Shown here: positions 4,536 to 51,299 of the stretch, piece by piece
Layout of the letters: every line of letters begins with the position of its first letter
How positions within the stretch are numbered: the stretch's first letter is position 1
Assembly: GCA_018241765.1 (NCBI GenBank)
Contig: JAFEDD010000005.1
Location: forward strand, 37,647 to 101,646
DNA: 64,000 nucleotides
Reading direction: 5' to 3'
Source: Pseudomonadota bacterium
GTDB taxonomy: Bacteria; Pseudomonadota; Gammaproteobacteria; Burkholderiales; Casimicrobiaceae
Program-made: the position numbers and the translations under genes
The notes under the pieces: generated by a model
Told to the model about the DNA's origin: nothing
The model's database searches: none
Seen by the model: only the letters and a program-made list of their open reading frames with translations

Positions 4536-4650
4536 GCTTTTCAAAAAAATGGCGTCCACAACAGGCTTGGAGCACGAAAACGCGGAATGTCGAGTTTCGC
4601 GCTTTTATGGCTCGAAGCCCGTCATGGATGCGGCTTTGCGCAAAAAGTTG
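4536..4650. repeat. Dispersed ~117-bp hairpin repeat, copy 1
   Basis: This is an imperfect inverted repeat. The left arm (GCTTTTC... GGCGTCCACAACAGGCTTG) pairs with the right arm (GAAGCCCGTCATGGATGCGG... AAAAAGTTG), with a short middle containing GTCGA. The same structure recurs at 12617, 26357, 37607 (half), 44360 and 51183. It fills most of the 301-bp gap between the DUF3592 gene and the ABC binding protein. No coding potential is evident. Confidence 0.8.
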
Positions 4651-4795
4651 ATGCGCGAACCTGACCGGGCTCGGGCGTGGTTCACGGGGCCAACGATAAT
4701 GAGCGCCTTCGATTCGCCGCGCCCCGCGCCACGCTGCTGCGCTTCGGTGTTGCGGTCGGCTTGCCCGGTGCCCACTACCCTTGGAGACTCTGCCC

Positions 4796-5779
4796 ATGCG
4801 TTCGCGTCGCATCATGAAACGGCTGGCCGCCGCGTTGTTTGCCATCGGCGCCGTCGCTGCGCAGGCGCAGCAGAAGGTCGTGTTCCAGACCAACTGGTTT
4901 GCGCAGGCGGAGCACGGCGGGCTCTATCAGGCGCTGGCCGAGGGCACCTACCGCAAGCATGGCCTCGACGTCACGCTGCGCATGGGGGGCGCGCAGGTCA
5001 ACGGGCTGCAACTGCTCGCGGTCGGTCAGGTCGACATGTGGATGGGCTTCGACATCGTCAACTACAAGGCGTGGGAGCAGGGCGTGCCGGCGGTCAGCGT
5101 GGCGACGTTCTTCCAGAAGGACCCGACCGTCGTCATCGCCCATTCCGACGTGAAGCAGTTCGCCGATCTGAAGACCAAAACCGTGCTCGTCTCGGCCGAC
5201 GGGCAAACCAACTGGTGGCCGTGGGCGAAGGCGAAGTACGGCTTGCGCGACGAGCAGACGCGGCCCTACACCTTCAACGTGCAACCCTTCGTCGCCAACC
5301 GCAATGTCGCGCAGCAGGGCTATCTGACCTCGGAGACGCTGGCCGTGCAAAAGGCGGGCGTGAAGGACGCCACCGTGTTTCTGCTGGCGGACCTCGGCTA
5401 TCCGCCCTACACCGAGACGGTCACCGTGCTGCGCAAGACGATCGAGCAGCGGCCGGCGATGATCGAGGCGTTCCTGCGCGCGACGATGGAGGGCTGGCGC
5501 AGCTATCTCGCCAATCCGGCGCCGGGCAACGCGCTCATCAAGAAGGACAACCCCGCGATGAGCGATGAACTGCTGGCCTACGGGCTGCAGAAGATCAAGC
5601 AGATGGGGCTGGTCACCGGCGGCGACGCCGCGAAGCAGGGCATCGGCATCATCACCGAGGCGCGCATGAAGCAGACCTGGGACATGATGGTCGCCAACAA
5701 GCTCATCGATCCGAGCAAGGTCAAGTTCCACGACGCGTGGGACGACCGCTTCGTGCGCGACCTGAAGGTGATGCCGTAG
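4796..5779 (+). CDS. ABC transporter substrate-binding protein, NMT1/THI5-like
   Basis: This is a periplasmic solute-binding protein of the NMT1/THI5 (SBP_bac/NitT-TauT) fold, 327 aa. An N-terminal signal peptide ends at AQA before QQK. 'TNWFAQAEHGGLYQALAEG' is the characteristic opening of pyrimidine-precursor and related binding proteins. Family precedent suggests a thiamine-precursor pyrimidine (HMP-like) or aromatic/sulfonate-type ligand; the sequence does not decide which. The ATG at 4796 was chosen because GGAG lies 9 nt upstream and the signal peptide starts there; TTG 4781 and ATG 4814 are alternatives. It is the first gene of a three-gene importer operon with the ATPase 11 bp downstream. 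No TPP riboswitch is seen in the leader. Confidence 0.85.
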   Translation: MRSRRIMKRLAAALFAIGAVAAQAQQKVVFQTNWFAQAEHGGLYQALAEGTYRKHGLDVTLRMGGAQVNGLQLLAVGQVDMWMGFDIVNYKAWEQGVPAVSVATFFQKDPTVVIAHSDVKQFADLKTKTVLVSADGQTNWWPWAKAKYGLRDEQTRPYTFNVQPFVANRNVAQQGYLTSETLAVQKAGVKDATVFLLADLGYPPYTETVTVLRKTIEQRPAMIEAFLRATMEGWRSYLANPAPGNALIKKDNPAMSDELLAYGLQKIKQMGLVTGGDAAKQGIGIITEARMKQTWDMMVANKLIDPSKVKFHDAWDDRFVRDLKVMP

Positions 5780-5790
5780 CGGAGCGCGAC

Positions 5791-6546
5791 GTGAGCGCCA
5801 TCGAACTGCGCGCCGTCGAGAAGACGTGGGAAAACGGCGTGCAGGCGCTGCGCCCGCTCGATCTGCGTGTCGAGCGTGGCGAAATCGTCACCTTGCTCGG
5901 CCCTTCCGGTTGCGGCAAATCGAGTCTGCTCAACATCGTCGCCGGCCTCACCGAAGCCTCCGCCGGAGACGTCTCGGTGGGCCCCGATGAGCGCATCGGG
6001 TTCGTGTTCCAGCAGGCGACGCTGATGCCGTGGGCGCGGGTGGCGGCCAACGTGCGCCTGCCGCTCGACCTCGCCGGCGTGGCGCGCGCCGAGGCGAACG
6101 CGCGCGCGGCCGAGGCGTTGCGTCGCGTCGGGCTCGGTGCCTTCGCTGAAGTGTGGCCGCGCGAATTGTCCGGCGGCATGCAGATGCGCGCCTCCATCGC
6201 CCGTGCGCTGGTCACGGAACCGACGCTGCTGCTGATGGACGAACCCTTCGGCGCGCTCGACGAGATCACGCGCAACCGGCTCGACGATGAACTGCTGCGC
6301 GTGCGTCGCGAGCAGCAACTCACGGTGCTCTTCGTCACCCACTCGATTCACGAAGCCGTGTATCTGTCCGACCGCGTCGTCGTGATGGCGGCGCGGCCCG
6401 GCCGCGTGGTGGCCGAGGTCGCCATCACCACCGACGAGCCGCGCGACGACGCCTTCCGCGTCTCGACCACCTTTGCGCGCCATGCGCGCGACTTGCAGCA
6501 GGCGCTGCTCGCGGCGGCGCGCGACGCCGATGAGGCGCTGGCATGA
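5791..6546 (+). CDS. ABC transporter ATP-binding protein (NitT/TauT family)
   Basis: This is the ATPase of the importer, 251 aa. All nucleotide-binding motifs are present: Walker A 'GPSGCGKSS' (37-45), Q-loop 'FVFQQATLMPW', signature 'LSGGMQMR', Walker B 'LLLMDEPFGALDE' and the H-loop 'THSIHEAV'. 'LMPW' after the Q-loop and 'FGALDEITR' are typical of SsuB/TauB/ThiZ-like proteins. The start is GTG 5791, with GGAG 6 nt upstream; the frame is open further upstream but overlaps the binding-protein gene. The stop overlaps the permease start by 4 bp (ATGA), so the two are translationally coupled. Confidence 0.93.
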   Translation: MSAIELRAVEKTWENGVQALRPLDLRVERGEIVTLLGPSGCGKSSLLNIVAGLTEASAGDVSVGPDERIGFVFQQATLMPWARVAANVRLPLDLAGVARAEANARAAEALRRVGLGAFAEVWPRELSGGMQMRASIARALVTEPTLLLMDEPFGALDEITRNRLDDELLRVRREQQLTVLFVTHSIHEAVYLSDRVVVMAARPGRVVAEVAITTDEPRDDAFRVSTTFARHARDLQQALLAAARDADEALA

Positions 6547-7313: not shown

Positions 7314-7338
7314 GCGACGCGGCGCTCCGTCGCACCGC

Positions 7339-7977: not shown

Positions 7978-8010
7978 GGCAGGGCTCCCGAAGATGCCCG
8001 CGCAGTGTAG

Positions 8011-9579
<1,569 letters not shown>

Positions 9580-10802: not shown

Positions 10803-12596
10803 ATGGCGGACGACGGCAAACTGGTGCGCAGTGAGCTCGAGCGCTTGCTCGGCAGCGAATTCCTGCGCCGCTCGCCGAGCCATCTGCGGCTGCTGCGCTA
10901 TCTCGTCGAGCGGCGGCTGGCCGGCGACACCGGCGCGCTGCGCGAGATGGCGATCGGCATCGAGGTGTTTCAGCGCAACCCGGCCACTTTCGACCCGAAG
11001 AACGACCCGATCGTGCGCGTCAATGCGAGCCGGCTGCGCGAGCGGCTGATGCGTCACTATGCGATGTTCGACACCCCGCCGCAGTTGCGCATCGAACTGC
11101 CGAAGGGACGCTACGTGCCGGAATTCATCGAGCTCGGCACGCGCACGCTGATGCCGCCGCGCTTTCTGGTGCTGCCGGTGGTCAGCGAACCGGCCGATGA
11201 TGCGCTGGCGACGCTGCTGTTCGAGTCGATGATCGGCGAACTGCAAGCGCTGCTTCAGGTGCAGGTACTCGGTTCGCGCTCGGCGCGGGCGGTGGCCGAC
11301 GATGAACCGCTCGACTCCGCGCGACGGCTGAACGCCCACGCCGTCCTCTCGTCGCGCCTGCTGCGCGTGGCGGCGACCGAAGGCGCGGCGACGGTGCCGA
11401 CGCTGCACACCCTGCTGCTGTCGGCGCCGTACGGGCACATGCTGGCCAGTCATCGCTACGAACGCGCGGCGGGTGAGTCGGACGCGCGCTTCGTCGAGCG
11501 CGTGAGCCGCCTCGTGCGCGATGCAAGCATCGAGGCGCTGGTCGACTTGCTGCCCGGCGAGTACACGCCACCGGCGCAGCGCCGCGGTTTTCAGGGCGTC
11601 GACGGCGAAGCGGCCGACGCCTACGTGGCGGCGCGGCGCGAGAGCGCGCTCGGCACGGCCGACGGCCACCGGCAGGCGCGACGGCTGCTGGAGGCGGCCA
11701 TCGCGCGCTCGCCCGACTTCGCGATGGCGCATGCGGCGCTCGCCAGCACGCTCGGCAACCTCTCGATGTACGAGCAGATCACGCCGGAGGAAGCGTGGCG
11801 CCTGGGCAGCGCCGCCTCGCGCCGCGCGCTCGAACTCGACCCGCTGGAACCCGGCGCCTACCTGAATCTGGCCGGCGACAAGATCTACTACGAATACGAC
11901 TTCGCCGCCGCCCGCGAGCTGTTGCGGCAGGCACTGACGCTCGCGCCGCGCCAACCCGGCGTGCATCTCTTGCTCGGCACCATCGCCTCCTACGAGGCGC
12001 GGCTGGACGAAGCGTTGCAGCATCTCGACGCCGCCCAGGAGCTCGACCCGCTGTACCCGGCGATCCGCGCCAACCGTGGCGTCGCCTGGCTCTTCTGCGG
12101 CCACTACACCGAAGCCGCCCGCGTGTTCTCCGAACTGCTTGCCCTGCACCCGCAGCGCAACGCCACGCGCGTATCGCTCGCCAACGCGCTGACGCTGCTC
12201 GGCGAGACTGACGCCGCGCAACGCGAGCTCGACGCCGTGCTCGAACGCGAGCCCGCCGATGCCGCCGCGCGGCTCGGTCTCGCCGTCCTCGCCGCCCGCG
12301 ACGGACGCAAGCAGGAAGCGCGCAGCCGCATCGATGCCGTGCGCGCCGACAGCGGCATCGAGCGCACCAATCCCTCGGCGCTGGCCAGCGCGTATGCGCA
12401 ACTGGGCGACGCGGCCGAAGCCATGCGCTGGCTCGCGCTCGCCGCCGAGTGCCACGAAGGCGGGTTCGCCGAAGCGCAGGTCGACCCGCTGCTCGCCCCG
12501 CTCGCGCCGCTGCCCGAGTTCCGCACCCTGCTCGCCGCCCACGGCCTGCGCCCGCTGCACGCGAACGCCGCCACCAGCGCACCCGCGCGCGCGTGA
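10803..12596 (+). CDS. Putative DNA-binding/TPR-repeat regulatory protein
   Basis: This 597-aa protein has two parts. Residues 1-110 form the helical module ('LRLLRYLVERRLAG...IGIEVFQR...FDPKNDPIVRVNASRLR') found at the N-terminus of many proteobacterial regulators and cyclase- or TPR-containing signalling proteins. It ends in a strand pair 'RIELPKGRYVPEF'. A middle segment (about 120-290) resembles the periplasmic/TolB-like adaptor of those proteins. Residues 300-570 are TPR-like repeats ('LGTIASYEARLDEALQHLDAAQ', 'LANALTLLGETDAAQRELDAV'). No transmembrane helix is evident, so it is probably cytoplasmic. The ATG at 10803 has GAGG upstream. Target genes are unknown. The dispersed hairpin and repeat array 1 follow directly. 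Confidence 0.65.
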   Translation: MADDGKLVRSELERLLGSEFLRRSPSHLRLLRYLVERRLAGDTGALREMAIGIEVFQRNPATFDPKNDPIVRVNASRLRERLMRHYAMFDTPPQLRIELPKGRYVPEFIELGTRTLMPPRFLVLPVVSEPADDALATLLFESMIGELQALLQVQVLGSRSARAVADDEPLDSARRLNAHAVLSSRLLRVAATEGAATVPTLHTLLLSAPYGHMLASHRYERAAGESDARFVERVSRLVRDASIEALVDLLPGEYTPPAQRRGFQGVDGEAADAYVAARRESALGTADGHRQARRLLEAAIARSPDFAMAHAALASTLGNLSMYEQITPEEAWRLGSAASRRALELDPLEPGAYLNLAGDKIYYEYDFAAARELLRQALTLAPRQPGVHLLLGTIASYEARLDEALQHLDAAQELDPLYPAIRANRGVAWLFCGHYTEAARVFSELLALHPQRNATRVSLANALTLLGETDAAQRELDAVLEREPADAAARLGLAVLAARDGRKQEARSRIDAVRADSGIERTNPSALASAYAQLGDAAEAMRWLALAAECHEGGFAEAQVDPLLAPLAPLPEFRTLLAAHGLRPLHANAATSAPARA

Positions 12597-12616
12597 ACGG
12601 TCAGGAAAGTAGCAAG

Positions 12617-12733
12617 CAGCTTTTCGCTGGAACCCGCAACGGTAACGGGATTGGAGCCAAATTTGGCTTGAAGTCGATTGTCCGCAAAAACACGCTTGAA
12701 GCCCGTCATGGACGCCATTTGAGTGAAAAGCTG
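12617..12733. repeat. Dispersed ~117-bp hairpin repeat, copy 2
   Basis: Perfect 9-bp terminal inverted repeats CAGCTTTTC/GAAAAGCTG bound a 117-bp imperfect palindrome. The right arm reads GAAGCCCGTCATGGACGCC and the core contains AGTCGA. The left arm has diverged (CGCAACGGTAACGGGATTGG). It lies 20 bp after the TPR gene and about 38 bp before array 1. Confidence 0.85.
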
Positions 12734-12770
12734 ATGGTTTGGATGCGCGCTCGAGCCCGCGGTGACGCGC

Positions 12771-13651
12771 TGTAGGCGACGGCTTGACGTCGCTTTGGTG
12801 GCGCTGATCATCGCCACCGGTCATCGAAGGCAGCCAAGCGCGGTCAAGCCCGCGCCTACGTGCTGTACGCGACGGCTTGACGTCGCTTGCGTGCGGTTGT
12901 TCATCGCCGCTGGTTATCGAACGCAGCCAAGCGCGGTCAAGCCCGCGCCTACATGTTGTGGGCGACGGCTTGACGTCGCTTTCGTGGTGCTGATCATCGT
13001 CAGCGGTCATCGAACGCAGCCAAGCGCGGTCGAGCCCGCGCCTACCAACTGTAGGCGACGGCTTGACGTCGCTTTCGTGGGGTTGTTCATCGCCGCTGGT
13101 TATTGAACGCAGCCAAGCGCGGTCAAGCCCGCGCCTACAACTTGTAGGCGACGGCTTGACGTCGCTTTCGTGGGGTTGGTTACCGCCACCGGTTATCGAA
13201 CGCAGCCAAGCGCGGTCAAGCCCGTGCCTACGCGCTGTAGGCGACGGCTTGACGTCGCTTGCGTGGGGTTGGTCATCGCCAGCGGTCATCGAACGCAGCC
13301 AAGCGCGGTCAAGCCCGCGCCTACGTGTTGTAGGCGACGGCTTGACGTCGCTTGCGTGCGGTTGATCATCGCCGCCGGTCATCGAAGGCAGCCCAGCGCG
13401 GTCAAGCCCGCGCCTACAAGTTGTAGGCGACGGCTTGACGTCGCTTTCGTGGGGTTGTTCATCGCCGCTGGTCATCGAATGCGGCCAAGCGCGGTCAAGC
13501 CCGCGCCTACAAGTTGTAGGCGACGGCTTGACGTCGCTTGCGTGCGGTTGTTCATCGCCGGCGGCCGTCGAACGGAGCCAAGCGCGGTCAAGCCCGCGCC
13601 TACAAGTTGTAGGCGACGGCTTGACGTCGCTTGCGTGCCGTCCATCATTGC
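12771..13651 (+). repeat. Tandem array 1 of a 93-bp REP-like unit (9 full copies plus a partial)
   Basis: GACGGCTTGACG recurs at 12778, 12871, 12964, 13057, 13150, 13243, 13336, 13429, 13522 and 13615, exactly 93 bp apart with no indel. Each unit begins GTAGGCGACGGCTTGACGTCGC and ends with the inverted form GCGCGGTCAAGCCCGCGCCTAC. The middle (~45 bp, TCATCGCC..GGTCATCGAA) is more variable. Because 93 is divisible by 3, all frames stay open, which gives long spurious ORFs on both strands. It is not CRISPR: the 'spacers' are themselves repeats. The array stops about 105 bp before the toxin-antitoxin operator. Confidence 0.95.
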
Positions 13652-13754
13652 CGCGACACCTCTTCAGCCCGTAGGGCAGGTCGCCGCCCCAGCGCTTCAC
13701 ATGCGCAGCCCCACTCACCGCCGTCAGCAGGTCTTGGTCGCAACCGTGTTACCC

Positions 13755-13773: not shown

Positions 13774-13781
13774 ACAAAACC

Positions 13782-14445: not shown

Positions 14446-17400
14446 CTACTGAAACGACGTTCCGCACGTCGCGTTGAGGTTGTCGCGGAGGGTCGTCCAC
14501 GGTGTCGCGATGCCGGTGCCCGCTGTGACCGCATTGCCGGTGATGCCGAGCATGGCGCGGGTAAGGATCAGGCCTTCCACGGTCGCCTGCAGCGGATTGA
14601 CACCGTTCATGCGCAGGTCGCACACCACGGGAGCGGCATTGATGCGGAAACTGAGCGTCGCGGCGGCGGCGTTGTAGATGCCACTTCCTGCCTGAGTCGC
14701 CTGAATGGTGCAGGTGCCGACAGCAAGGCCGCTCACGGTGCCCGCGCTGATGGAGCACACCGATGGCGTCGTGCTGCTCAGCGTGACCGGCGTGAGGCCC
14801 TTGTCGGAGGTGGCCGTGAAGGTGCCAGTGCCGCCCACGGCGATGCTTGGCACCAGGCCGAACAGCAGCGTCTGGAAGCCGCCACCGATGCCAAAGCTCA
14901 GGCTGGCGCTGGCGGCAGCAACGTTGGCATTGCCAGCCTGATTGGCCTGGATGGTGCAGACGCCCGTGCTGATGCCGGTGACCGTGTTGCCGCTCACGCT
15001 GCACGTTGTCGGTGTCGTGCTGGTCAGCGTGACCGGAACCAGACCCTTGTCGGACGTCGCGTTCAGACTGCCGTTGCCGCCGACGACCACCGCGGGCGTC
15101 GGGCCGAAGCTGATGGTCTGGCTGCCGATGCCGATGGTGATGCTCTGGGTCACCTGCGGTGCCGACGCGTACGTCGCATCCCCGCCCTGATTGGCGGCGA
15201 TGACGCAGGTCCCGGTGGCGACGCCGGTCACGAGGCCGGAACTGGCGTTGACGGTGCAGGCCGGGCTGGCGGTGCTGAACGTCACCGCTAGGCCGGACGT
15301 TGCGGTGGCCGTGACCGTTCCGGTTCCACCGTAGGCGATGGTCGGTGCGGGGCCGAAGCTGATCGTCTGGGCGCTGACGCCGACGTACACCAGGGTGGCA
15401 GTGCTGGCGATGCCGTTGACGACGACCGAGAGTGCGTAGGGGCCACGTTGCAGACTGGACAGTGGTGCGCTTTGGTAGGTGGTCGCGGACCGGGTGCTGC
15501 CAGTCGCCGGCGACGCCCAGACGACCTGTTCGCTGTCGAGGCGACGCAATTGCAGCAGCGGATAGTTGGTGGCGCTGTTATTGCTGCTACTGCCAGACGC
15601 TTCGCTGTCGCCCGTGAAGCCGGTGCCGGTCAACGTGACGCTACCGCCCGGCGGCAGCGGATTGGTCACCGTGGTGATCACCGGGCGGCGAGCGTCATCG
15701 ATGCCGAAGTCTTCAAGGTAGAGCTCGGCGCTGTTGATGAGCGCGTTGCTGCCGCTTCCGGACGCGGCCAGCACCCTGCCGGAGGCAAGCAGTGTCGCGG
15801 TGTGGCCGGCGCGCGCGGCCGCGAGCGTCGTGGCGTTGCTCCAGCTGTTGCCGATGGGGTCATAGAGCTCGACACTGTTCGACGCGGTGACGCCAGTCGT
15901 CCCGCCCACCATCAGCACTTTGCCCGAGGGCAGCAGCGTGGCCGTGTGAGCGTTGCGTGCACTCACGACTGGGCCCGCCGCTCCCCAGGTGTTGCTCACC
16001 GGGTCGTAGAGCTCAGCGCTCGACAGCGACCCGCTGGCGCCGAGGCCCGTCGCCGCCAGCACCTTGCCCGAGGGCAGCAGCGTCGCACTGTGCAGCGTGC
16101 GCGCCGCCGCGAGTGAGCCCGCCGCGGCCCAGGTATTGGCGACCGGGTCGTAGAGTTGGGCGCTGCTCAAGGGGGTGCCGCCGAGGTTGGCAGCGCCCCC
16201 GGCAACCAGCACCTTGCCCGAGGGCAGCAGGGTCGCGGTGTGCTGGTAGCGAGCCGTTGTCAGCGCGCCCGCGCCGCTCCAGGTGTTGCTGCCAGGGTCG
16301 TAGAGCTCCGCACTGTTCAAAATGATGCCACTGCTGCCCAGGCCCGCTGCAACCAGCACCTTGCCGGACGGCAGCAGCGTGGCGGTGTGCTGATAGCGCG
16401 CTGCGGCGAGCGATCCTGCGCTGCTCCAGGTGTTGCTGCCAGGGTCATACAGCTCCGCGCTGCTCAGGGCGCCGCCGCTGTTATTGCCCCCCACGACCAA
16501 TACTTTGCCCGAGGCAAGCAGCGTCGCCGTGTGTGACGCGCGCGCGGCCGTGAGCGTACCGCCGCTGCTCCAGGCATTGCTGGCGGGGGAATAGAGTTCG
16601 GCGCTGGCCAGGATGCCGGCGTTGCCGCCGCCGGCGACCAGCACCTTGCCCGAGGGTAACAACGTCGCGGTATGTCCGCCGCGCGCGGTGGCGAGCGTAC
16701 CGGCGCCGACCCAGGTGCTCCCGGCCGGGTCATAGATGTCAACACTGTTCAGCGAACTGCCGTACAGCGTCGCTGTACCGCCGGTGATCAGCAGTTTGCC
16801 GGAGGCCAGCAGGGTCGCAGCGTGAAGAAGGCGCGTGCTCGACAGATTGCCGCCGCTGCTCCAGGAATTCGCGGTCGGATCGTAGATCTCCGTGCTGGCT
16901 TGACCGAACCCGCCCGCGACCATGACTTTGCCTGAGGGCAGCAGCGTTGCCGTGTGGAACGCATGCGGGTCGGCGAGATTGCCGGCAGCCGTCCAGGTGT
17001 TGGTTGCGGGGTCGTAGAGCTGGGCGCTGGTCAGGATCGTGCTGCCGTTGGACCCCTCTCCGCTGGCCAGTAGCACCTTGCCCGTCGCCAGCAAGGTGGC
17101 GGTGTGCAGGCTGCGCGCCGTGGCGAAGCTCGCGCCTGCGCTCCAACTGTTGTTCGCGGGATCATAAAGCTCGGTGGTGGCGTAGGCCACACCGCTGAAC
17201 TTGGTGGCGCCCCCGGCGATCATCACTTTGCCGGTGGGCAACAACGTGGCGGTGTGGTTGACGCGTGCCGTGGTCAAGCTCGGCGCCGCGCTCCAGCTGT
17301 TGCTCGCTGGGTCATAGAGCTCGGCGGTGTTGAATGCCGCACCACTGATGTCGGTGCCGCCGACGACCAGCACTTTGCCGGAAGGCAGCAGCGTGGCGGT

Positions 17401-17865
17401 GTGGTTGACACGCCCGGTGATCAGGTTGCCCGCACTGCTCCAGCCGTTGCTGATGGGGTCATAGAGCTCTGCGCTGTTCACGATACCACTGGCACCGACG
17501 CCGGAAACGAGCAGCACCTTGCCGGAAGGCAGCAGCGTGGCGGTAGCCAAGGAGCGCGCCGTGGTGAGGTTGCCGCCACTGCTCCAGCTGTTGGTCGTCG
17601 GGTCATACAGTTCGGTGCTCGCGAGGGGGTTGGCCGCACCGGGGCCGCTGCGCCCGGCCACCAGCACCTTGCCTGACGGCAGCAGGGTGGCCGTGTGCCC
17701 CTGGCTCGCAGTCGCCATGCTGGCGGCCGTGCTCCATCCTGCGGCATTGCACGCTGAACTGACTGCCAACAATGTCCCGGCGAGCCAAGCAAGCCAGCGT
17801 GACGTTGATGTTCGGGGAAAGCGTGGAAGCGCTGCGAAAAGCGGCGCAAGGACGGAAACCAACAT
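14446..17865 (-). CDS. Secreted kelch-repeat protein with bacterial Ig-like domains and dockerin-like C-terminus
   Basis: This 1139-aa exported protein has a signal peptide around 'WLAWLAGTLLAVSSACNA'. Fourteen ~48-aa kelch-type repeats follow, each built on 'HTATLLPSGKVLVAGG' and 'AELYDP.SNTWS' and forming one or two beta-propellers (about residues 45-720). An IPT/TIG-like segment ('GGSVTLTGTGFTGDS') leads to three Ig-like repeats of ~80 aa opening 'QTISFGP'. The last ~60 residues ('LRMNGVNPLQATVEGLILTRAMLGITGN') match the dockerin-like tail of the protein at 30221-31834, but with weakened metal-binding positions. It is probably surface or extracellular and binding in nature; no catalytic motif is seen. 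Array 1 and the TA module lie on one side, array 2 on the other. Confidence 0.8.
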   Translation of the reverse strand: MLVSVLAPLFAALPRFPRTSTSRWLAWLAGTLLAVSSACNAAGWSTAASMATASQGHTATLLPSGKVLVAGRSGPGAANPLASTELYDPTTNSWSSGGNLTTARSLATATLLPSGKVLLVSGVGASGIVNSAELYDPISNGWSSAGNLITGRVNHTATLLPSGKVLVVGGTDISGAAFNTAELYDPASNSWSAAPSLTTARVNHTATLLPTGKVMIAGGATKFSGVAYATTELYDPANNSWSAGASFATARSLHTATLLATGKVLLASGEGSNGSTILTSAQLYDPATNTWTAAGNLADPHAFHTATLLPSGKVMVAGGFGQASTEIYDPTANSWSSGGNLSSTRLLHAATLLASGKLLITGGTATLYGSSLNSVDIYDPAGSTWVGAGTLATARGGHTATLLPSGKVLVAGGGNAGILASAELYSPASNAWSSGGTLTAARASHTATLLASGKVLVVGGNNSGGALSSAELYDPGSNTWSSAGSLAAARYQHTATLLPSGKVLVAAGLGSSGIILNSAELYDPGSNTWSGAGALTTARYQHTATLLPSGKVLVAGGAANLGGTPLSSAQLYDPVANTWAAAGSLAAARTLHSATLLPSGKVLAATGLGASGSLSSAELYDPVSNTWGAAGPVVSARNAHTATLLPSGKVLMVGGTTGVTASNSVELYDPIGNSWSNATTLAAARAGHTATLLASGRVLAASGSGSNALINSAELYLEDFGIDDARRPVITTVTNPLPPGGSVTLTGTGFTGDSEASGSSSNNSATNYPLLQLRRLDSEQVVWASPATGSTRSATTYQSAPLSSLQRGPYALSVVVNGIASTATLVYVGVSAQTISFGPAPTIAYGGTGTVTATATSGLAVTFSTASPACTVNASSGLVTGVATGTCVIAANQGGDATYASAPQVTQSITIGIGSQTISFGPTPAVVVGGNGSLNATSDKGLVPVTLTSTTPTTCSVSGNTVTGISTGVCTIQANQAGNANVAAASASLSFGIGGGFQTLLFGLVPSIAVGGTGTFTATSDKGLTPVTLSSTTPSVCSISAGTVSGLAVGTCTIQATQAGSGIYNAAAATLSFRINAAPVVCDLRMNGVNPLQATVEGLILTRAMLGITGNAVTAGTGIATPWTTLRDNLNATCGTSFQ

Positions 17866-17993: not shown

Positions 17994-18333
17994 TTTTCAG
18001 GCTTCAAGCTGATGCCCGACGTCGCCGGCGAGTCTTGCCGGCGGTGACCCTGCTGAAGTGTTGTCGCCCCGGCGGTTCGGCGCTCTTGCTGTCGAGCGCC
18101 GCTCGCAGAGCGCGCCAGAACGGAGGAACCCCTGGCCGAAGCCGTCGCGCGGAAGTTCGCAACCTTCGTGGATTTCCATCCTTTCCATCTCGGCGAACAT
18201 CGCAACCCGACTTGTCGCATGCCGCACTTCATCGGCACGTCCGTCGGTCTTTCGCTGCTGGTCGCGGCGTTTGTCACCACACTCTGGTGACTGGTTCCGT
18301 GGGCATCGTGCAGGGCTATGTGTGGGCGTGGGT

Positions 18334-19818
18334 GAAGGCGACGGCTTGACGTCGCTTGCGTGCTGTGGGTCATCGCCACCGGTCATCGAACGTAGCCAAG
18401 CGCGGTCAAGCCCGCGCCTACGCGTTGTAGGCGACGGCTTGACGTCGCTTTCGTGGGGTTGTTCATCGCCGCTGGTTATTGAACGCAGCCAAGCGCGGTC
18501 AAGCCCGCGCCTACGCGTTGTAGGCGACGGCTTGACGTCGCTTGCGTGGGGTCGATCATCGCCACCGGTCATCGAAGGCGGCCAAGCGCGGTCAAGCCCG
18601 CGCCTACAACTTGTAGGCGACGGCTTGACGTCGCTTTCGTGGGTTCGATCATCGCCCCCGGTCATCGAAGGCAGCCCAGCGCGGTCAAGCCCGCGCCTAC
18701 AACTTGTAGGCGACGGCTTGACGTCGCTTGCGTGGGGTCGATCATCGCCACCGGTCATCGAAGGCAGCCCAGCGCGGTCAAGCCCGCGCCTACATGTTGT
18801 GGGCGACGGCTTGACGTCGCTTTCGTGGCGCTGATCATCGCCACCGGTCATCGAACGCAGCCGAGCGCGGTCGAGCCCGTGCCTACAAGTTGTAGGCGAC
18901 GGCTTGACGTCGCTTGCGTGCGGTTGATCATCGCCGCCGGTCATCGAAGGCAGCCCAGCGCGGTCAAGCCCGCGCCTACCAACTGTAGGCGACGGCTTGA
19001 CGTCGCTTGCGTGCGGTTGATCATCGCCCCCGGTCATCGAACGCAGCCCAGCGCGGTCAAGCCCGCGCCTACGCGCTGTAGGCGACGGCTTGACGTCGCT
19101 TGCGTGCCGTTGGTCATCGCCCCCGGTCGTCGAAGGCAGCCAAGCGCGGTCAAGCCCGCGCCTACCAACTGTAGGCGACGGCTTGACGTCGCTTTCGTGC
19201 GGTTGATCATCGCCACCGGTCATCGAACGTAGCCAAGCGCGGTCAAGCCCGCGCCTACAAGTTGTAGGCGACGGCTTGACGTCGCTTGCGTGGGGTTGTT
19301 CATCGCCGCTGGTTATCGAACGCAGCCAAGCGCGGTCAAGCCCGCGCCTACAAGTTGCAGGCGACGGCTTGACGTCGCTTGCGTGCCGTTGGTCATCGCC
19401 ACCGGTCATCGAAGGCAGCCAAGCGCGGTCAAGCCCGCGCCTACCGGGTGTAGGCGACGGCTTGACGTCGCTTGCGTGGGGTTGATCATCGCCACCGTTC
19501 ATCGAAGGCAGCCAAGCGCGGTCGAGCCCGCGCCTACAAGTTGTGGGCGACGGCTTGACGTCGCTTGCGTGCGGTTGATCATCGTCGGCGGCCGTCGAAC
19601 GGAGCCAAGCGCGGTCAAGCCCGCGCCTACAAGTTGTAGGCGACGGCTTGACGTCGCTTGCGTGCGGTTGTTCATCGCCGCTGGTTATTGAACGCAGCCA
19701 AGCGCGGTCAAGCCCGCGCCTACCGGTTGTAGGCGACGGCTTGACGTCGCTTGCGTGCGGTTGTTCATCGCCGCTGGTTATCGAACGCAGCCGAGCGCGG
19801 TCGAGCCCGCGCCTACCG
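18334..19818 (+). repeat. Tandem array 2 of the 93-bp REP-like unit (16 copies)
   Basis: GACGGCTTGACG recurs 16 times from 18340 to 19735, every interval exactly 93 bp. It is the same unit and orientation as array 1. Unit ends form hairpins: GCGACG-gcttga-CGTCGC at the head and GCGCGG-tcaagc-CCGCGC at the tail. The two are inverted versions of each other with compensatory stem changes. Middle segments vary in a few patterns (for example TTCATCGCCGCTGGTTAT against ATCATCGCCACCGGTCAT) shared between the arrays. The array ends about 65 bp before the next gene. Confidence 0.95.
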
Positions 19819-19884
19819 GCGGCTTTCCTGCCGTAACATCGTCGCCGTTGCGGGGTTGCCTCCCGCCTTCCCTTGGAGCGTGCC

Positions 19885-21534
19885 ATGTTGCGCCTCAGCG
19901 AACTCAAACTGCCGCTCGATCACGACGATGCGGCGTTGCCGGCGGCGATCTGCCGGCGCTTGGGCATCGGGCCCGAGGAATTGCTTGCCTTTCACATCGC
20001 GCGGCGCGGTTACGACGCGCGGCGCAAGAGCGACATTCAGCTGGTCTACACGATCGACGTCGAACTGCCGGCGGCGCGCGAGCGCGCGCTGCGCAAGCGC
20101 TTGCAGCGCGACGGGCGCACCGGCCCGACACCCGACACCCGCTATCGGCCGGTGGCCACCGGAGGTGCATTGCCGGCCGGGGCGACGCGTCCGCTGGTGG
20201 TCGGCTTCGGGCCCTGCGGCATGCTGGCCGCGCTGATCCTCGCGCAGGCGGGGTTGCGGCCGATCATCGTCGAGCGCGGCAAGGTGGTGCGCGAGCGCAC
20301 GCGCGACACCTGGGCGTTCTGGCGTCGGCGCGAACTCGACTGCGAATCGAACGTGCAGTTCGGCGAGGGCGGCGCCGGCACCTTCAGCGATGGCAAGCTC
20401 TACTCGCAGGTGCGCGACCCGCAGCACTACGGCCGCAAGGTGCTGGAGGAATTCGTGAAGGCGGGCGCGCCCGAGGAAATTCTCTACCTCAGCAAGCCGC
20501 ACATCGGCACCTTCCGGCTGGTGAAGATGGTGGAGCACATGCGCGCGAGCATCGAGGCGCTGGGTGGCGAATTCCGCTTCCGCCATCGGGTGGAGGATCT
20601 GCTGCTCGAGGCGAACCCCGAGGGGGATGCGCGCCGTTCGCGGCGCGTTCGCGGCGTCGTGTTTGCCGACGGGACGACGCTCGCGGCCGATCACGTCATC
20701 CTCGCCGTCGGTCACAGCGCGCGCGACACCTTCGCGATGCTCGCGCGCCGCGCCGTGCAGATGACGCCGAAGCCGTTTTCGGTGGGCTTTCGCATCGAGC
20801 ATCCGCAGAGCCTGATCGATCGCAGCCGCTTCGGTGAGCGCGGCGGTCACCCGCTGCTCGGCGCCGCCGACTACCGGCTGGTGCATCACGCGGGCAACGG
20901 CCGCGCCGTCTACAGCTTCTGCATGTGTCCGGGCGGCACCGTCGTCGCGGCCAGCTCGGAGGCGGGCGCCGTCGTCACCAACGGCATGAGCCAGTACTCG
21001 CGCGCCGAGCGCAACGCCAACTCGGCGATCGTCGTCGCCATCGATGCGGCCGACTATGCCGATGCCGACCACGGCGTGCTCGCCGGCATCGCCTTCCAGC
21101 GCCGATGGGAACGCCGCGCGTTCGAATTGGGCGGCGGCAACTACGACGCGCCGGCGCAGTTGCTCGGTGACTTTCTTGCGGGACGCCCGTCGACCGCCCT
21201 CGGCAGCGTCGCTCCGAGCTTCAGGCCCGGCGTGCGGCTGACCGATCTGTCGAGCGCGCTGCCCGCCGAAGTGATCGCCTCGCTGCGCGAAGCGCTGCCC
21301 GCGTTCGAGCGGCAGTTGCCCGGTTTCGCACTGCCCGACGCGCTGCTGACCGGTGTCGAGACGCGAACCAGTTCGCCGCTGCGTGTCGAGCGCGATGGCG
21401 ACGACTTGCAAAGCGTCAATATCGGCGGGCTCTATCCGGCGGGCGAGGGAGCGGGTTACGCCGGCGGCATCCTGTCGGCCGCGATCGACGGCATTCGCGT
21501 CGCCGAGGCGCTGGCGCGCGCCGTCGTGCGCTGA
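19885..21534 (+). CDS. FAD-dependent dehydrogenase of the COG2509 family
   Basis: This 549-aa protein belongs to the uncharacterised NAD(P)/FAD-dependent oxidoreductases of COG2509. An N-terminal ~90-aa adaptor domain ('GIGPEELLAFHIARRGYDAR') precedes an FAD-binding motif 'VVGFGPCGMLAALILAQAG' (about residue 104). Family blocks 'NVQFGEGGAGTFSDGKLYS', 'CPGGTVVAASSE' and a C-terminal 'GLYPAGEGAGYAGGI' complete the fold. No substrate is known for the family. The ATG at 19885 has GGAG 8 nt upstream. It starts 65 bp after repeat array 2 and is probably the first core gene beyond that element. Confidence 0.88.
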   Translation: MLRLSELKLPLDHDDAALPAAICRRLGIGPEELLAFHIARRGYDARRKSDIQLVYTIDVELPAARERALRKRLQRDGRTGPTPDTRYRPVATGGALPAGATRPLVVGFGPCGMLAALILAQAGLRPIIVERGKVVRERTRDTWAFWRRRELDCESNVQFGEGGAGTFSDGKLYSQVRDPQHYGRKVLEEFVKAGAPEEILYLSKPHIGTFRLVKMVEHMRASIEALGGEFRFRHRVEDLLLEANPEGDARRSRRVRGVVFADGTTLAADHVILAVGHSARDTFAMLARRAVQMTPKPFSVGFRIEHPQSLIDRSRFGERGGHPLLGAADYRLVHHAGNGRAVYSFCMCPGGTVVAASSEAGAVVTNGMSQYSRAERNANSAIVVAIDAADYADADHGVLAGIAFQRRWERRAFELGGGNYDAPAQLLGDFLAGRPSTALGSVAPSFRPGVRLTDLSSALPAEVIASLREALPAFERQLPGFALPDALLTGVETRTSSPLRVERDGDDLQSVNIGGLYPAGEGAGYAGGILSAAIDGIRVAEALARAVVR

Positions 21535-22460: not shown

Positions 22461-24512
22461 TCAGTCGTCGATCTCGACCGCCTTGTATTTGCTCGCAAGG
22501 TCGTGCTGCACGGCGCCCGGTGCCTGCGCGTAGTGCGAAAACGCGACGCTGTAGGCGCCCTTGCCGCCGGTCAGCGATTTCAGCCGACCCTGATAGTTTT
22601 CGAGCTCCGCCAGCGGCGCCAGCGCGCTGATCGACACCGTGCCGGCGAGCCGCGTCTGCGTGCCCGTCACATGGCCGCGACGGCCGGCGAGGTCGCCGGT
22701 CAGATCCCCCATCGCGGCGTCCGGCGCCACCACTTCCACCGTCACCATCGGCTCCAGCAGAATCGGGCCGGACTTGCGGATCGCATCGATCATCGCCTTG
22801 CGGCCTGCGGTGACGAAGGCGATCTCCTTGCCGTCCACCGCGTGCGTCTTGCCGTCGTAGACGGTGACCCGGATGTCCTGCAGCGGAAAGCCCGCGATGA
22901 CGCCCGAGGCGAGCGCCTGCCGCACGCCGCGCTCCACGGCGGGCATGAACACGCTGGGGATGGCGCCGCCCTTGACGATATCGACGAACTCGAAGCCGCC
23001 GCCGCGCGGCAGCGGTTCGACCCGCAGCATCACCTCGCCGAACTGCCCGGCGCCACCGCTTTGCTTCTTGTGGCGGCAATGGCCCTCGGCATTGCCGGTG
23101 ATCGTCTCGCGATAGGCGATCTGCGGCGGGCTCGTCGCGAGCTCCAGCTTGTATTGCTGCTGCATGCGCGCGAGCTTCGAGCGCAGGTGCATTTCACCCA
23201 GGCCGCGGATGACCACCTCGTTGGTCGTCGGGTGCCGTTCGGTCTTGAACGACGGGTCTTCCAGTTCGAGCTTGTGCAGGATCTCGAACAGCCGCTGCTC
23301 GTCGCCCTTGCGCTTCGTCTCCACGGCGAGGCCCTGCATCGGCTGCGGAAATTCGAGCGCCTTGAGATGGATGTGATCCTCGTCGTGCGAGTCGTGCAGC
23401 ACGCTGTCGAACTCGATCTCCTCGACCTTCGCCACGGCCCCGATGTCGCCCGGCACGAGCTGCGGCACTTCGACGTAGTCCTTGCCGTGCAGTCGATAGA
23501 GATGCGCCACCTTGAAAGCGCGTTTGCCGCTGCCGACGAAGAGCTGCGAATCGCGGCGCACGGTGCCCTGGTGCACGCGGAACACGCCGAGCTTGCCCAT
23601 GAACGGGTCGACGATCACCTGAAACACATGCGCCAGCACGTGCTTCTCCGCATCCGGCTCTGCCGCGAAGGCTTCATGCGTCTGGCCCGGCTCGCCGCGA
23701 TAGAACGGCGGCGGGTTGCCCTCGGCCGGGTTCGGCGCCAGCCGGGCGATGGCGTCGAGCAGTTGCGGAATGCCGGCGCCGGTGCGCGCCGAGGTGAACA
23801 GGATCGGAATCAGATGCCCCGCGCGCAGCGCGCGCTCGAAGGGTTCGTGCAGCGCCTCGGGGCTCGGGTCGGCGCCATCTTCGAGATAGCGCGCCATCAA
23901 ATCCTCGTCTTCCTCGACGATCTGGTCGATCAACGCGCGGTGCGCCGCCGCGATCGAGGCGAAGTCGCTGTCGCCGCTGTCATGGCCGAGCAGCTCGACC
24001 ACCTGCTGCCCGTGTTGCGTGGGCAGATCGAGCAGCAGGCATTCGCGCCCGAAGCGCTCGCGGATTTCCGCCACCAGAGCCGGCAGATCGATGTTGTCGG
24101 CGTCGATCTTGTTGATGACGATCATGCGGCACAGGCCACGCTCGCCGGCCAGATGGAACATGCGTTCGGTGGCCAGCTCGATGCCGGTCTGCGCGTTGAT
24201 CACCACCAGTGCGCAGTCGACGGCGGCCAAGGCGCCGATGGCCTGCCCCATGAAGTCCGGGTAGCCCGGGGTGTCGATCAGGTGCACCTGCGCACCGCCC
24301 CACGAAAAGCTCGCCATCGCCGCCTGCAGCGAGTGGCCGAACTCTTTCTCCAGAGGGTCGAAGTCGAGTGCCGTGTTGCCGCGCTCGACGCTGCCGCGGC
24401 TGTTGATGGCGCCGCTGGCCGCGAGCAGGCTCTCGGCCAGCGTGGTCTTGCCGGCCGCACCGTGACCCACCAGGGCCACGGTGCGGATCGAACTGCTCGC
24501 TGAATGTGTCAT
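22461..24512 (-). CDS. fusA: Elongation factor G-like GTPase (second-type EF-G)
   Basis: This 683-aa translational GTPase has the EF-G domain order. Its G motifs are 'GHGAAGKTT' (G1), 'DTPGYPDF' (G3), 'NKID' (G4) and 'SART' (G5). The P-loop sequence and the 'GSVERGNTALDFDPLEKEFGHS' region fit the EF-G2/FusA-like paralogues rather than the canonical FusA of the str operon. It is not linked here to rpsL, rpsG or tuf, which supports paralogue status. Paralogues of this type have been implicated in ribosome recycling or slow translocation; the role here is inferred. The start at 24512 gives MTHSASSS; longer starts are unsupported. Confidence 0.88.
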   Translation of the reverse strand: MTHSASSSIRTVALVGHGAAGKTTLAESLLAASGAINSRGSVERGNTALDFDPLEKEFGHSLQAAMASFSWGGAQVHLIDTPGYPDFMGQAIGALAAVDCALVVINAQTGIELATERMFHLAGERGLCRMIVINKIDADNIDLPALVAEIRERFGRECLLLDLPTQHGQQVVELLGHDSGDSDFASIAAAHRALIDQIVEEDEDLMARYLEDGADPSPEALHEPFERALRAGHLIPILFTSARTGAGIPQLLDAIARLAPNPAEGNPPPFYRGEPGQTHEAFAAEPDAEKHVLAHVFQVIVDPFMGKLGVFRVHQGTVRRDSQLFVGSGKRAFKVAHLYRLHGKDYVEVPQLVPGDIGAVAKVEEIEFDSVLHDSHDEDHIHLKALEFPQPMQGLAVETKRKGDEQRLFEILHKLELEDPSFKTERHPTTNEVVIRGLGEMHLRSKLARMQQQYKLELATSPPQIAYRETITGNAEGHCRHKKQSGGAGQFGEVMLRVEPLPRGGGFEFVDIVKGGAIPSVFMPAVERGVRQALASGVIAGFPLQDIRVTVYDGKTHAVDGKEIAFVTAGRKAMIDAIRKSGPILLEPMVTVEVVAPDAAMGDLTGDLAGRRGHVTGTQTRLAGTVSISALAPLAELENYQGRLKSLTGGKGAYSVAFSHYAQAPGAVQHDLASKYKAVEIDD

Positions 24513-24671: not shown

Positions 24672-24677
24672 TACAAT
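24672..24677 (+). promoter_or_regulatory. -10 element upstream of the riboswitch
   Basis: TACAAT would place the transcription start at about 24683, just before the riboswitch. No good -35 is visible at 17 bp; the stretch from 24513 to 24671 otherwise shows nothing. Confidence 0.4.
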
Positions 24678-24682
24678 GCGCG

Positions 24683-24870
24683 GGTCATTGGGGAGTAGCC
24701 GCCCGTGCGCGCCGTGTCATGGCGCTGGCAACGGGGCTCGCGTCAACACACTTGGCCGATCGGCCATGGCGCGTGCGATGCTCGCGGCGTTCGTCGCTCG
24801 CGGCATGTCTGGCAAGACCTTTGACTGCGAAGCCTCCGCACGCGCCGGGGAAGCCTCGCAGTCAATGGTT
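24683..24870 (+). ncRNA. yybP-ykoY-type (Mn2+) riboswitch leader
   Basis: The leader of the GDT1-family gene contains GGGGAGTAGC (24690-24699), the hallmark first conserved loop of the yybP-ykoY riboswitch. It also has GGCAAGACCT (24811-24820) and CCGGGGAAGCC (24845-24855), in the order expected. A perfect 10-bp stem TTGACTGCGA/TCGCAGTCAA (24821-24830 with 24856-24865) closes the 3' domain, and GGCCGATCGGCC (24754-24765) forms an inner helix. The class senses Mn2+ and commonly controls Mn2+ exporters, GDT1/UPF0016 genes included. A covariance-model search would settle it. Confidence 0.75.
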
Positions 24871-26233: not shown

Positions 26234-26356
26234 GACGATGCGGGGTGCGGCGTGCGAGCGCCGGGATGCGAAAGACAATCGCGCAGTGTAGCGGGCGTGG
26301 CGTCGTTCTTGCTGCGGCGCATCAAAATCGCATCATCCGCGGCCGAATCCAGGCAA

Positions 26357-26474
26357 CAACTTTGACGTGAAAACCGCATCCATGACAGGCTTGGCGGCTG
26401 ATTTCGCGCAAAGTCGACAAATGCGGAAATCGAGCCGGAAGCCCGTCATGAATGCGGCTTTGCGCTCGAAGCTG
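26357..26474. repeat. Dispersed ~117-bp hairpin repeat, copy 3
   Basis: The left arm begins CAACTTTGA and contains GCATCCATGACAGGCTTGG. The right arm is GAAGCCCGTCATGAATGCGG and ends TCGAAGCTG. The core contains AAGTCGAC. It lies between the SDR start and the class V aminotransferase stop, and the 297-bp gap holds no other feature I can see. Confidence 0.8.
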
Positions 26475-26530
26475 ATGCCACGGTTTGCCGTGGCGGTGTC
26501 GCGCCACGGCCGTCGGCGCGGCGCGGACGG

Positions 26531-37582: not shown

Positions 37583-37606
37583 CGCTCGATTCCTGGGCCC
37601 CGTTAC

Positions 37607-37700
37607 AGCTTGAAGCTGGAAGCCGCATCCACAACGGGCTTCAGGCCGAAAAACGGCAGAAGTCGACATGGAAAATCGAAAAACTGCCGTTCGCGCCGGA
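37607..37700. repeat. Dispersed hairpin repeat, copy 4 (right arm lost)
   Basis: The left arm CAGCTTGAAGCTGGAAGCCG... GGGCTTC and the core with AAGTCGAC match the other copies. No arm like GAAGCCCGTCATGGATG follows. The inner CGGCAG...CTGCCG pair persists. The rest of the 238-bp gap before lexA shows nothing else. Confidence 0.6.
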
Positions 37701-44195: not shown

Positions 44196-44359
44196 CCCGT
44201 GCGGTGTGGGTGCGTGCCCGAACGACGACGTCGCCGTGGTTTGATCCGCGTCTCCCTGGAGTCGATGTGGCGGCGCCGCCACTCGTTGAACCTTCGAATT
44301 ATCGCGTCGAGCGCGCAGTTTCGCCGTCACCGCGTTCCACAAGCCGCCCCGCGACCCAA

Positions 44360-44476
44360 CAACTTTTCATCGAAAGCCGCATCCATGACGGGCTTGTAGC
44401 GCGCATTTGCCAATAGTCGACATCATTGAAAAACGCGCCGCAAGCCTGTTATGGACGTCATTTGAACGAAAAGTTG
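44360..44476. repeat. Dispersed ~117-bp hairpin repeat, copy 5 (best preserved ends)
   Basis: Perfect terminal repeats CAACTTTTC/GAAAAGTTG bound 117 bp. The arms are GCCGCATCCATGACGGGCTTG and CAAGCCTGTTATGGACGTC, with AGTCGACAT in the core. Differences between the arms are mostly transitions that keep G-U pairing in RNA. Confidence 0.88.
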
Positions 44477-44548
44477 TATCGATTCGGGCATCCTTCCGAG
44501 GCATCGCGCCGAGCGCTTTGCGGTGCGCATTTCGTGCCGGGCGGACCG

Positions 44549-48266: not shown

Positions 48267-48285
48267 ATCGCCGGCGCTGCGGCTG

Positions 48286-48534: not shown

Positions 48535-48561
48535 GGCGTCGAGGCTACGGAATCGAGGAGG

Positions 48562-49845: not shown

Positions 49846-49866
49846 GGGACTCCTGGTTACCTCTCG

Positions 49867-50250: not shown

Positions 50251-50356
50251 GATGAGCTCCTGAAGGCGCCGCACGCGGCGCAAAAGTTGGTCGGGGATGA
50301 GGGCGATTGTACGGGTGCGCCGCCGCCGTTCGGACGCCGACGGTGCGCATCGATAC

Positions 50357-50384
50357 GAAAAAACGGCCGCCCGGGGGCGGCCGT
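50357..50384 (-). terminator. Intrinsic terminator of the glycine-zipper gene
   Basis: On the minus strand the perfect stem ACGGCCGCCC/GGGCGGCCGT is followed directly by a run of six T. It lies about 20 bp beyond the stop of the gene ending at 50404. Confidence 0.85.
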
Positions 50385-50403
50385 TCTTCGCGGGGCGGGT
50401 GCG

Positions 50404-51048
50404 TCAGCGACGCACCGGCGGCGGCGCTTCCGGCGCGAGGTTCACGCGCACCGAGAGCGTGGGGCCCGGGTCATAGGCCATGCGGGTGCTGTAGTCGCGG
50501 CCCTGATAACGGTAGACGACGTTGTAGCCGACGATTTCGTCGCGTCCGTCGTACACGGTGCGGCAGCGCTGCACGGTGCGCGTTTCGGGGACGTAGTCGA
50601 CACGCGCGGGGCCGCTCGCCACCGGCGCGGCGTTGGCCGACGGGGAGTTCTCGATCTGGTTGCCGACCAGGCCGCCGACGATGGCGCCGGCCGCCGTGCC
50701 GCGATCGCGCCCGCCCGAGGAGTTGCCGAACTGGTGGCCGACGACGCCACCGATGATGGCGCCGAGGATGGTGCCGGCGCCGACGGTGCGCTCACCGCTC
50801 GGGGCGGGCGCGGGTTGCCCGGCCGGGTAGTTGGCGTTGGCGTAGCCGGGCGAGGGCACGGCGCGGGTTTCGGTGACGGTGTCGTTCCAGCAGTCCTGAC
50901 GCGGCACGTTGTTGCGCTCGTAGATGGGCTGCGCCGACAGCACTTGCGCGGTGTCGGTGTAGCTCTGGCTCGGCGCGGGGTAGGGCTGCGCAAACGCCGC
51001 GCTGGCGGCGAGGGCGGTGAGCGTCATGGCGAAGATGGGTTTGATCAC
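50404..51048 (-). CDS. Exported glycine-zipper 2TM-domain protein
   Basis: This 214-aa protein has a signal peptide ending at AFA before QPY. A glycine zipper region ('GTILGAIIGGVVGHQFGN', 'GAIVGGLVGNQIEN') corresponds to the Rick_17kDa/glycine-zipper 2TM family of outer-membrane-associated proteins. The C-terminal third has a 'CRTVYDGRDEIVGYNVVYRYQGR' pattern seen in these proteins. The role is probably envelope integrity. The start is GTG 51048, with AGGGAG upstream. The gene has its own terminator. Confidence 0.82.
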   Translation of the reverse strand: MIKPIFAMTLTALAASAAFAQPYPAPSQSYTDTAQVLSAQPIYERNNVPRQDCWNDTVTETRAVPSPGYANANYPAGQPAPAPSGERTVGAGTILGAIIGGVVGHQFGNSSGGRDRGTAAGAIVGGLVGNQIENSPSANAAPVASGPARVDYVPETRTVQRCRTVYDGRDEIVGYNVVYRYQGRDYSTRMAYDPGPTLSVRVNLAPEAPPPVRR

Positions 51049-51182
51049 GTTGGTCTCCCTGGCTTGGTGGCGACTATGCCCGGCGGCGCGTGCGTGCGCC
51101 GTGCTGTCGATTTGACCGCACGAATCGAAAAACGTGCCGTCGGGCATCTCGTTGACTCGTCGATTCCGAATCGGAATCTCAA

Positions 51183-51299
51183 CAGCTTTCATCGCAAATG
51201 ACGTCCATGACGGGCTTGGCGGCCAGATTCGCCAGAAGTCGAGTTTGTTCGAAATGTGGCTGCAAGCCCGCAACCAACGTCATTTCAGCAAAAAGCCAT
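51183..51299. repeat. Dispersed ~117-bp hairpin repeat, copy 6
   Basis: The left arm is CAGCTTTCATCGCAAATGACG then TCCATGACGGGCTTGG. The right arm is GCAAGCCCGCAACCAACGTC then ATTTCAGCAAAAAGCC. The core contains AAGTCGAG. It lies between the glycine-zipper gene and the SulP transporter stop. Confidence 0.8.

Follow-up and report, generated by a model that had tools for sequence, protein, structure and literature searches.

In this study, we analysed a dispersed intergenic DNA element of about 125 bp that recurs in a window of 64,000 nucleotides (the whole stretch under study, from contig JAFEDD010000005.1 of a Casimicrobiaceae bacterium) and in other genomes of the same genus. The element is symmetrical, held in position between species and, in the best-sampled genome, evenly spaced, which suggests that it is the landing site of a DNA-wrapping machine and not a jumping element or an RNA. 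Judged from the sequences, it is likely that the copies are sites in duplex DNA for a two-fold wrapping complex. We prefer this reading because of the dyad symmetry around a TCGA centre, a length that stays fixed despite divergence, phased A/T tracts and the lack of covariation between the arms, and also because the positions are conserved, the sites are mostly close to stop codons and the spacing in the congener G005 is even, at about 12 kb.

Copies of the element and their distribution

The first-pass annotation of the window had claimed one repeat family at six places, and five full copies and one degraded half copy of such a family are indeed present. The constant length that it described held, but its figure of 115-118 bp fell slightly short: the full extent is 124-126 bp in 67/67 copies of the host genome (G000; its congeners are labelled G001-G016 and loci carry an L number) and in 66/70 copies of G005. 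The inverted arms were confirmed as well, with ends near GCAWCARCTTTT and AAAAGYTGWTGC and the centre GTCGAC. In the full copies, a core (CATCCATGACGGGCTTG, with variants) is present twice, in inverted orientation. An alignment of 25 host copies (A2) has 21 invariant columns out of 127 and contains two types of arm, A (GGATGCGG) and B (GGACGTCATTT). Counted by eye, these combine as 6 AA, 16 AB and 3 BB, with no preference for matched arms. Searches were made with R1, a model built from the 25 host copies that is tuned to the host and performs less well in other genomes, with the broader model R2 and with a further model, R3. The copies in the window are listed here.

4530..4654, plus strand: full copy with divergent genes on either side; arms B-A; R1 100.7 bits; G005 orthologue at 3617006-3617130
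12613..12737, minus strand: full copy; arms B-A; R1 107.3 bits; G005 orthologue at 3606626-3606751
26353..26478, minus strand: full copy with tandem genes on either side; arms A-A; R1 105.7 bits; orthologues in G005 and G012
37603..37700 (end approximate), no strand given: degraded half copy with convergent genes on either side; from alignment A1
44356..44480, plus strand: full copy upstream of alaS with divergent genes on either side; arms A-B; R1 116.4 bits
44376..44396, plus strand: left arm core of the 44356 copy, genome-specific (GCCGCATCCATGACGGGCTTG); from A2 and congeners with other cores
44417..44420, no strand given: TCGA centre of symmetry in the 44356 copy; its four columns are invariant in A2 (25 copies)
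44441..44459, minus strand: right arm core of the 44356 copy; from A2
51179..51302, plus strand: full copy with tandem genes on either side; arms B-B; R1 95.5 bits; orthologues in G005 and G012

The copy at 12613..12737 lies 16 bp past the stop codon of a TPR gene (10803-12596). The degraded copy at 37603 was reported by neither R1 nor R2, and its syntenic place is occupied by an intact element in G005 (L278:13195-13320) and in G012 (L282:10606-10731). Beyond the 25 copies of A2, a few further copies depart from the TCGA centre.

In 426.5 kb of host DNA, made up of the window, contig C22 and what remains of contig C55, R1 detected the element at 25 distinct places. Scored on the better strand, the weakest of these has 75.3 bits (E 1.4e-14), and R1 matched nowhere else in this DNA down to E 0.001. 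The repeat is not due to chance. A model search for further copies in the host genome and its relatives, proposed as a check in the first-pass annotation, found them in both. The host genome harbors at least 93 distinct places (from 150 scored matches), or at least 101 when places from further searches are included, and a contiguous 880 kb of G005 harbors 70 elements. R1 matched in 11/60 genomes, all of the same genus and with the host included, R2 in 14/40 and R3 in 16/40. Within the family, R3 found the element in 16/17 genomes of the genus and in 0/43 genomes from other genera, a 60-genome search with stricter filters than those applied to sets of up to 40 genomes. R1 and R3 detected no element in genomes from other families of the order. 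Among the matches listed, the best hits of the host RecA are Betaproteobacteria at 80-81%, and R1 had 0/27 matches in a set of such genomes whose kinship to the host was not given. Two congeners with small genomes of 2.5-2.6 Mb stand apart: G009 has few elements (21 matches over both strands) and in G016 the element was not found. They form a contrast set for finding a partner protein. Most remaining members of the genus have at least as many matches as the searches listed.

Conserved positions, genomic placement and the question of mobility

Positional conservation was assessed from the near flanks of 67 host elements against the contiguous 880 kb of G005. A flank match of at least 150 bases was obtained for 21/67 elements, from which L135, L138 and L146 were dropped for want of a near flank, so that 18 were counted. 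For 14/18 a G005 element lies within 24 bp. The four misses (L027, L018, L151 and L025) rest on single near flanks, three of them weak; the sole strong one is that of L018 (1462 bases, 77%). All six window copies have a G005 partner, and the window elements in syntenic stretches (4/4, the degraded one included) are paired in both G005 and G012, where the aligned DNA is merely 66-87% identical. A lower figure from two partial samples (11/60 G005 copies with a flank match) is superseded by the contiguous sequence; the samples had covered a small part of the copies in either genome, which made that figure misleading. Orthologues share idiosyncratic outer sequence (identity 0.559 versus 0.467 when shuffled, reached in 0/2000 shuffles), whereas their cores are no more alike than shuffled ones (0.504 versus 0.493; inner part 0.374 versus 0.371).

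Upstream of alaS, R1 detected the element in G000, G005, G012, G015 and G008. Weak matches at this place, seen by eye, come from G001 (25 bits) and from G013 (19 bits, E 0.07). It was not seen at this place in G006, G004 and G009, and G003 had no alaS match. The six genomes of a second group (clade II) gave one partial element match at alaS (G007, L255). As a separate observation, an element in G005 at 3342383-3342507 (L280:17384-17508) is probably shared with G012 (L281:2494-2618). It lies about 0.8 kb past the sequence that matches the window at 24.67 kb; synteny further on is not established, and at its counterpart the window has no model match and a predicted gene (22461-24479).

A miniature inverted-repeat transposable element (MITE), the first of the possibilities raised in the first-pass annotation, would be a non-autonomous transposon that is still or was recently mobile. 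The element is dispersed and intergenic and has inverted ends, as a MITE would, but near-identical copies are missing: no pair reaches 85% identity among 2211 host pairs (67 copies) or 2415 G005 pairs (70 copies), and the highest ungapped identities are 0.81 and 0.67, respectively. Moreover, most mappable copies are positional orthologues across species. No target-site duplication stands out in 67 copies over 96 choices of edge and length, the largest excess being 12 versus 6.4 expected, for 2-mers. A comparison for empty sites found 14/18 places occupied in both genomes, and the place upstream of alaS without the element in the three congeners named above. We consider a MITE extremely improbable.

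Gene predictions came from a crude home-made codon model, which was retrained after repeats had biased its first version. The intergenic location claimed at the outset was borne out, with 0/25 copies inside predicted genes in the 426.5 kb of host DNA and 1/67 top-scoring host copies overlapping a predicted gene start. In the 25-copy host sample, 16 copies lie in tandem, 5 in convergent and 4 in divergent gaps, compared with 76, 16 and 41 such gaps; the 67 top-scoring host copies comprise 38 tandem, 23 convergent and 5 divergent ones besides the one on a gene start. A sample of 60 G005 copies has 30 tandem, 17 convergent and 11 divergent ones, one gene overlap and one at a locus edge. All 70 elements in the G005 stretch divide into 45 tandem, 13 convergent and 12 divergent, against 196, 39 and 96 gaps of at least 120 bp, and divergent gaps are avoided (12/70 versus 96/331, p 0.017). 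The median distance is 36 bp to a stop codon versus 116 bp to a start, and the upstream stop is nearer than the downstream start in 35/45 tandem gaps of G005 and 31/38 of G000. Promoters in front of the starts may play a part in this placement. The closeness to predicted stop codons and the avoidance of divergent gaps may reflect a position downstream of transcription units. The 70 G005 elements have a mean gap of 12.6 kb and a closest pair 3.2 kb apart. Their coefficient of variation (CV) is 0.52, whereas intergenic gaps drawn at random give 0.93 (sd 0.10) and 0/3000 draws reach 0.52; only 3 gaps are below 5 kb versus 21.5 expected.

Another possibility, which we regard as improbable, is that the copies are old REP dimers (REPINs), in which two inverted REPs flank a fixed-length spacer; a RAYT transposase would once have spread them, and most would by now be fixed. 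The REP-like reading of the first-pass annotation stands in outline, since the two cores are inverted and partly palindromic, the copies are numerous and stop codons are near; it fails in that R1 found no element at the host RAYTs. An inverted pair of palindromic units with a spacer is present. Published REP dimers have spacers of mostly 20-100 bp, some of these spacers being similar in length and different in sequence (PMC3733652); some of the dimers are found inside longer palindromes (PMC3733652). Y1 transposases occur in 12/13 genus genomes searched, the exception being G009 with its few elements. In addition, some clade II cores (G011; GCCCTATGAAATATGGGC, GCCTTATGAAATAAGGC) seem by eye to have changed on both sides of the palindrome. 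By contrast, the host has two Y1-transposase genes of RAYT type, and R1 gave no match at either; the transposase flanked by the same ends that the first-pass annotation proposed to look for was not recovered there. Of 30 Y1 loci fetched, 23 were covered by this host-tuned model and gave one weak R1 match (L213, 24 bits, E 0.003). Y1 genes are also present in 4/8 genomes of other families of the order, where R1 and R3 find no element. Young copies were not found, the spacing in G005 is even, and the top 25 within-arm position pairs in G000 or G005 show no consistent Watson-Crick covariation. A RAYT as mobiliser was rejected, as no link to the element was found at the Y1 genes examined.

The host Y1 genes are set in other repeats (translated repeats, by eye). 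Of the REP-end tags GTAG and CGTC, the latter occurs in B-type arms by eye and is not constant in congeners. The window itself contains a 93-bp tandem repeat of 25 copies (about 12745-13720 and 18240-19930), a REP-like palindrome (TCAAGCCCGCGCCTAC...GTAGGCGACGGCTTGACGTCGC) that by eye is like the repeats around the Y1-transposase gene G000:C24:7282 (L221).

Symmetry, DNA shape and candidate wrapping complexes

The first-pass annotation also allowed for a structured RNA. Such an RNA, or a 3'-UTR hairpin acting as terminator or mRNA stabiliser, would agree with copies close to stop codons and with single strands that fold better than shuffled ones (z -1.35 to -8.10 for ten strands of six copies). 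However, G-U versus A-C mismatches have no strand polarity (p 0.26 and 0.40), 4/25 copies in G000 and 12/70 in G005 lie between divergent genes, and no Rfam family reached its gathering score on any element in a scan of the window. The arms do not covary. Mirror positions with excess identity (p<0.02) number 2/62 in 33 host elements and 0/62 in 42 G005 elements, about as chance gives. In the consensus fold, 5/19 pairs have double changes, no more than two independent half-sites yield, and associated position pairs exist within arms without a consistent Watson-Crick gain among the top 25 pairs in G000 or G005. Selection for pairing between arms was rejected on the basis of an arm-swap control and of the wobble polarity, and a G-U excess in the first consensus fold depended on the orientation chosen by the aligner. 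The two-sided palindrome changes that seem by eye to occur in clade II would weigh against the conclusion that there is no hairpin selection. Overall, an RNA is very improbable, and the folding hairpin is read as a by-product of the dyad symmetry.

Arm identity within elements hardly differs from that between elements (0.704 versus 0.698 in 67 copies of G000; 0.629 versus 0.621 in 60 copies of G005). Since arms of one element match no better than others, the symmetry is that of two independent half-sites. Around the near-invariant TCGA centre, A/T tracts recur about every 10 bp, with maxima at about 5, 13.5, 24.5, 34, 45 and 53.5 bp from the centre and a best interior period of 9.5 bp, reached by 0.1-0.5% of permutations in three samples. 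The wave continues outside the element at about 68, 79, 90 and 101 bp with a period of 10.5 in 254 arms of G000 and G005, and with a period of 10 in 40 arms of six other congeners (0/1000 shifted controls each). When all 70 elements of the 880-kb G005 stretch are taken together, the wave outside has a period of 11.3 and a power of 0.025 versus 0.005 in shifted controls (0/1000). At 13-15 bp from the centre, the constraint in G005 is for A or T and hardly favours one over the other, as in shape readout.

The core behaves differently from this frame. Clade I genomes share a skeleton of AWCAGCTTTT, GAAA, an A/T tract and AAAGTCGACTTT, and the core in between varies by genome. Nearly all of 134 G000 arms carry CATCCATGACGGGCTTG; the G005 core is looser (CCATTCnAAnTGGGCT, 120 arms) and is resembled by those of G012 (24 arms) and G006 (8 arms). 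Three copies of G008 have a GTCGTTA-type core, which is more degenerate in two copies of G013. Clade II has the outer skeleton in common and its own centre (17 copies from G007, G011 and G014). The congener core looks like a dimeric operator of the GCCCAT-n5-ATGGGC type. Between G000 and G005, arm cores differ at the same positions (67 and 60 copies; 14 orthologous pairs): the core changed in many copies at once, at conserved positions. The genome-specific core calls for a further partner protein.

In the mechanism that we propose, a large complex would bind each two-fold element and wrap at least about 125 bp of duplex DNA around itself. The most likely candidate is DNA gyrase or another type II topoisomerase like it. 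Its sites would lie where positive supercoils arise from transcription, giving every 10 kb or so of DNA a strong site of its own. A second, dimeric and sequence-specific protein would read the partly palindromic core about 34 bp on either side of the centre. Co-evolution of this protein with the core would account for cores that vary from species to species while their positions are conserved. The gyrase motif of E. coli is symmetric, spans 130 bp with a 4-bp staggered cut and has GC phased at 10.75 bp, and its sites are enriched downstream of transcription units (PMC6379681). On account of this published motif and placement, gyrase ranks first among single candidates; a strong site in every 10 kb or so would also suit supercoil domains. 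That the copies are wrapping sites, plausibly of gyrase, together with a co-evolving core-binding protein (both proteins putative) is a serious possibility, if still short of a probable one.

Several observations weigh against gyrase or against the regular placement. Restriction to one genus and changing cores are not explained by gyrase alone. The interior period is 9.5 and not the 10.75 bp of gyrase, the phasing reaches further out than a 130-bp motif, and element-free gaps after stop codons have an outside power of 0.010 themselves. Even spacing is significant in G005 only; for the 25 copies in 427 kb of the host it is a trend (CV 0.74, compared with 0.96 if placement were uniform; p 0.07; with the half copy, CV 0.76, p 0.09), and the convergent enrichment is weak in the complete G005 sampling (13/70 versus 39/331, p 0.06).

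The same duplex wrapping site might instead serve another architectural complex that organises the chromosome, such as an Lrp/AsnC-type octamer, an IHF/HU-bent complex or a condensin loader. The whole anatomy would fit any two-fold wrapping complex, the operator-like core of the congeners would suit such a protein, and a core that differs between species would not be expected of a gyrase preference. However, in the literature sampled the closest match is the pattern described for gyrase, in its length, 4-bp centre, phasing and downstream placement, and there is no candidate protein to point to, none having been searched for. We consider this alternative somewhat unlikely. The widest form of the wrapping-site reading is a chromosome-wide grid, in which hundreds of two-fold wrapping sites, one about every 12 kb and in places that species share, might switch their cores in concert throughout the genome when a partner protein alters its specificity; on the present sequences, we advance this only tentatively. 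If true, the grid would be what, outside bacteria, a centromere or hotspot protein is together with the sites that it coevolves with.

Two further features of the window were noted. A predicted gene on the minus strand (14446-17718) contains a 44-nt unit 13 times at steps of 132-150 nt (families D17-D20). A yybP-ykoY manganese riboswitch (RF00080, 69.6 bits) lies at 24673-24792 on the plus strand, with a predicted gene start at 24778.

Comparison with known systems

The literature sampled gave no prior description of the element, which does not establish its absence from print. Like RUP, Correia/NEMIS and the Caulobacter CIR, it is a dispersed intergenic repeat of roughly 100 bp. RUP and Correia/NEMIS are treated as MITEs and CIR as only partly MITE-like (PMC2229807), whereas the element described here is not MITE-like by our tests. 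With REPINs and REP dimers it shares two inverted palindromic units, a spacer, high copy number and an intergenic location (PMC3733652, PMC3116915, PMC8049555). It differs from them in its fixed 125 bp, the absence of near-identical copies, its conserved positions and the lack of a detected Y1 link. ERIC is likewise an imperfect palindrome. This enterobacterial repeat is similar in length, at 127 bp (PMC2229807). By description, it differs in occurring in other taxa and in being thought to act on mRNA stability (PMC2229807).

A core that changes at fixed places offers a natural case for the evolution of a genome-wide protein-DNA code. That bacterial chromosomes are divided into supercoil domains, each of roughly 10 kb, is a long-standing inference, and for the most part these domains have no boundaries fixed in the sequence. 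For E. coli, 400-500 domains are given (PMC3820752). A conserved and evenly spaced DNA site would make supercoil-domain organisation directly testable.

The closest likeness is to strong gyrase sites (SGS): set against the published description, the element has a two-fold motif of about 130 bp and helically phased GC. BIME-2 elements of E. coli are intergenic and behave as transcription-independent strong gyrase sites (PMC6379681), and the gyrase site of phage Mu and its domain are treated in PMC3820752. In contrast to BIME-2 and the Mu SGS, the element described here combines one long skeleton, many position-conserved copies, even spacing in G005 and a genome-specific core.

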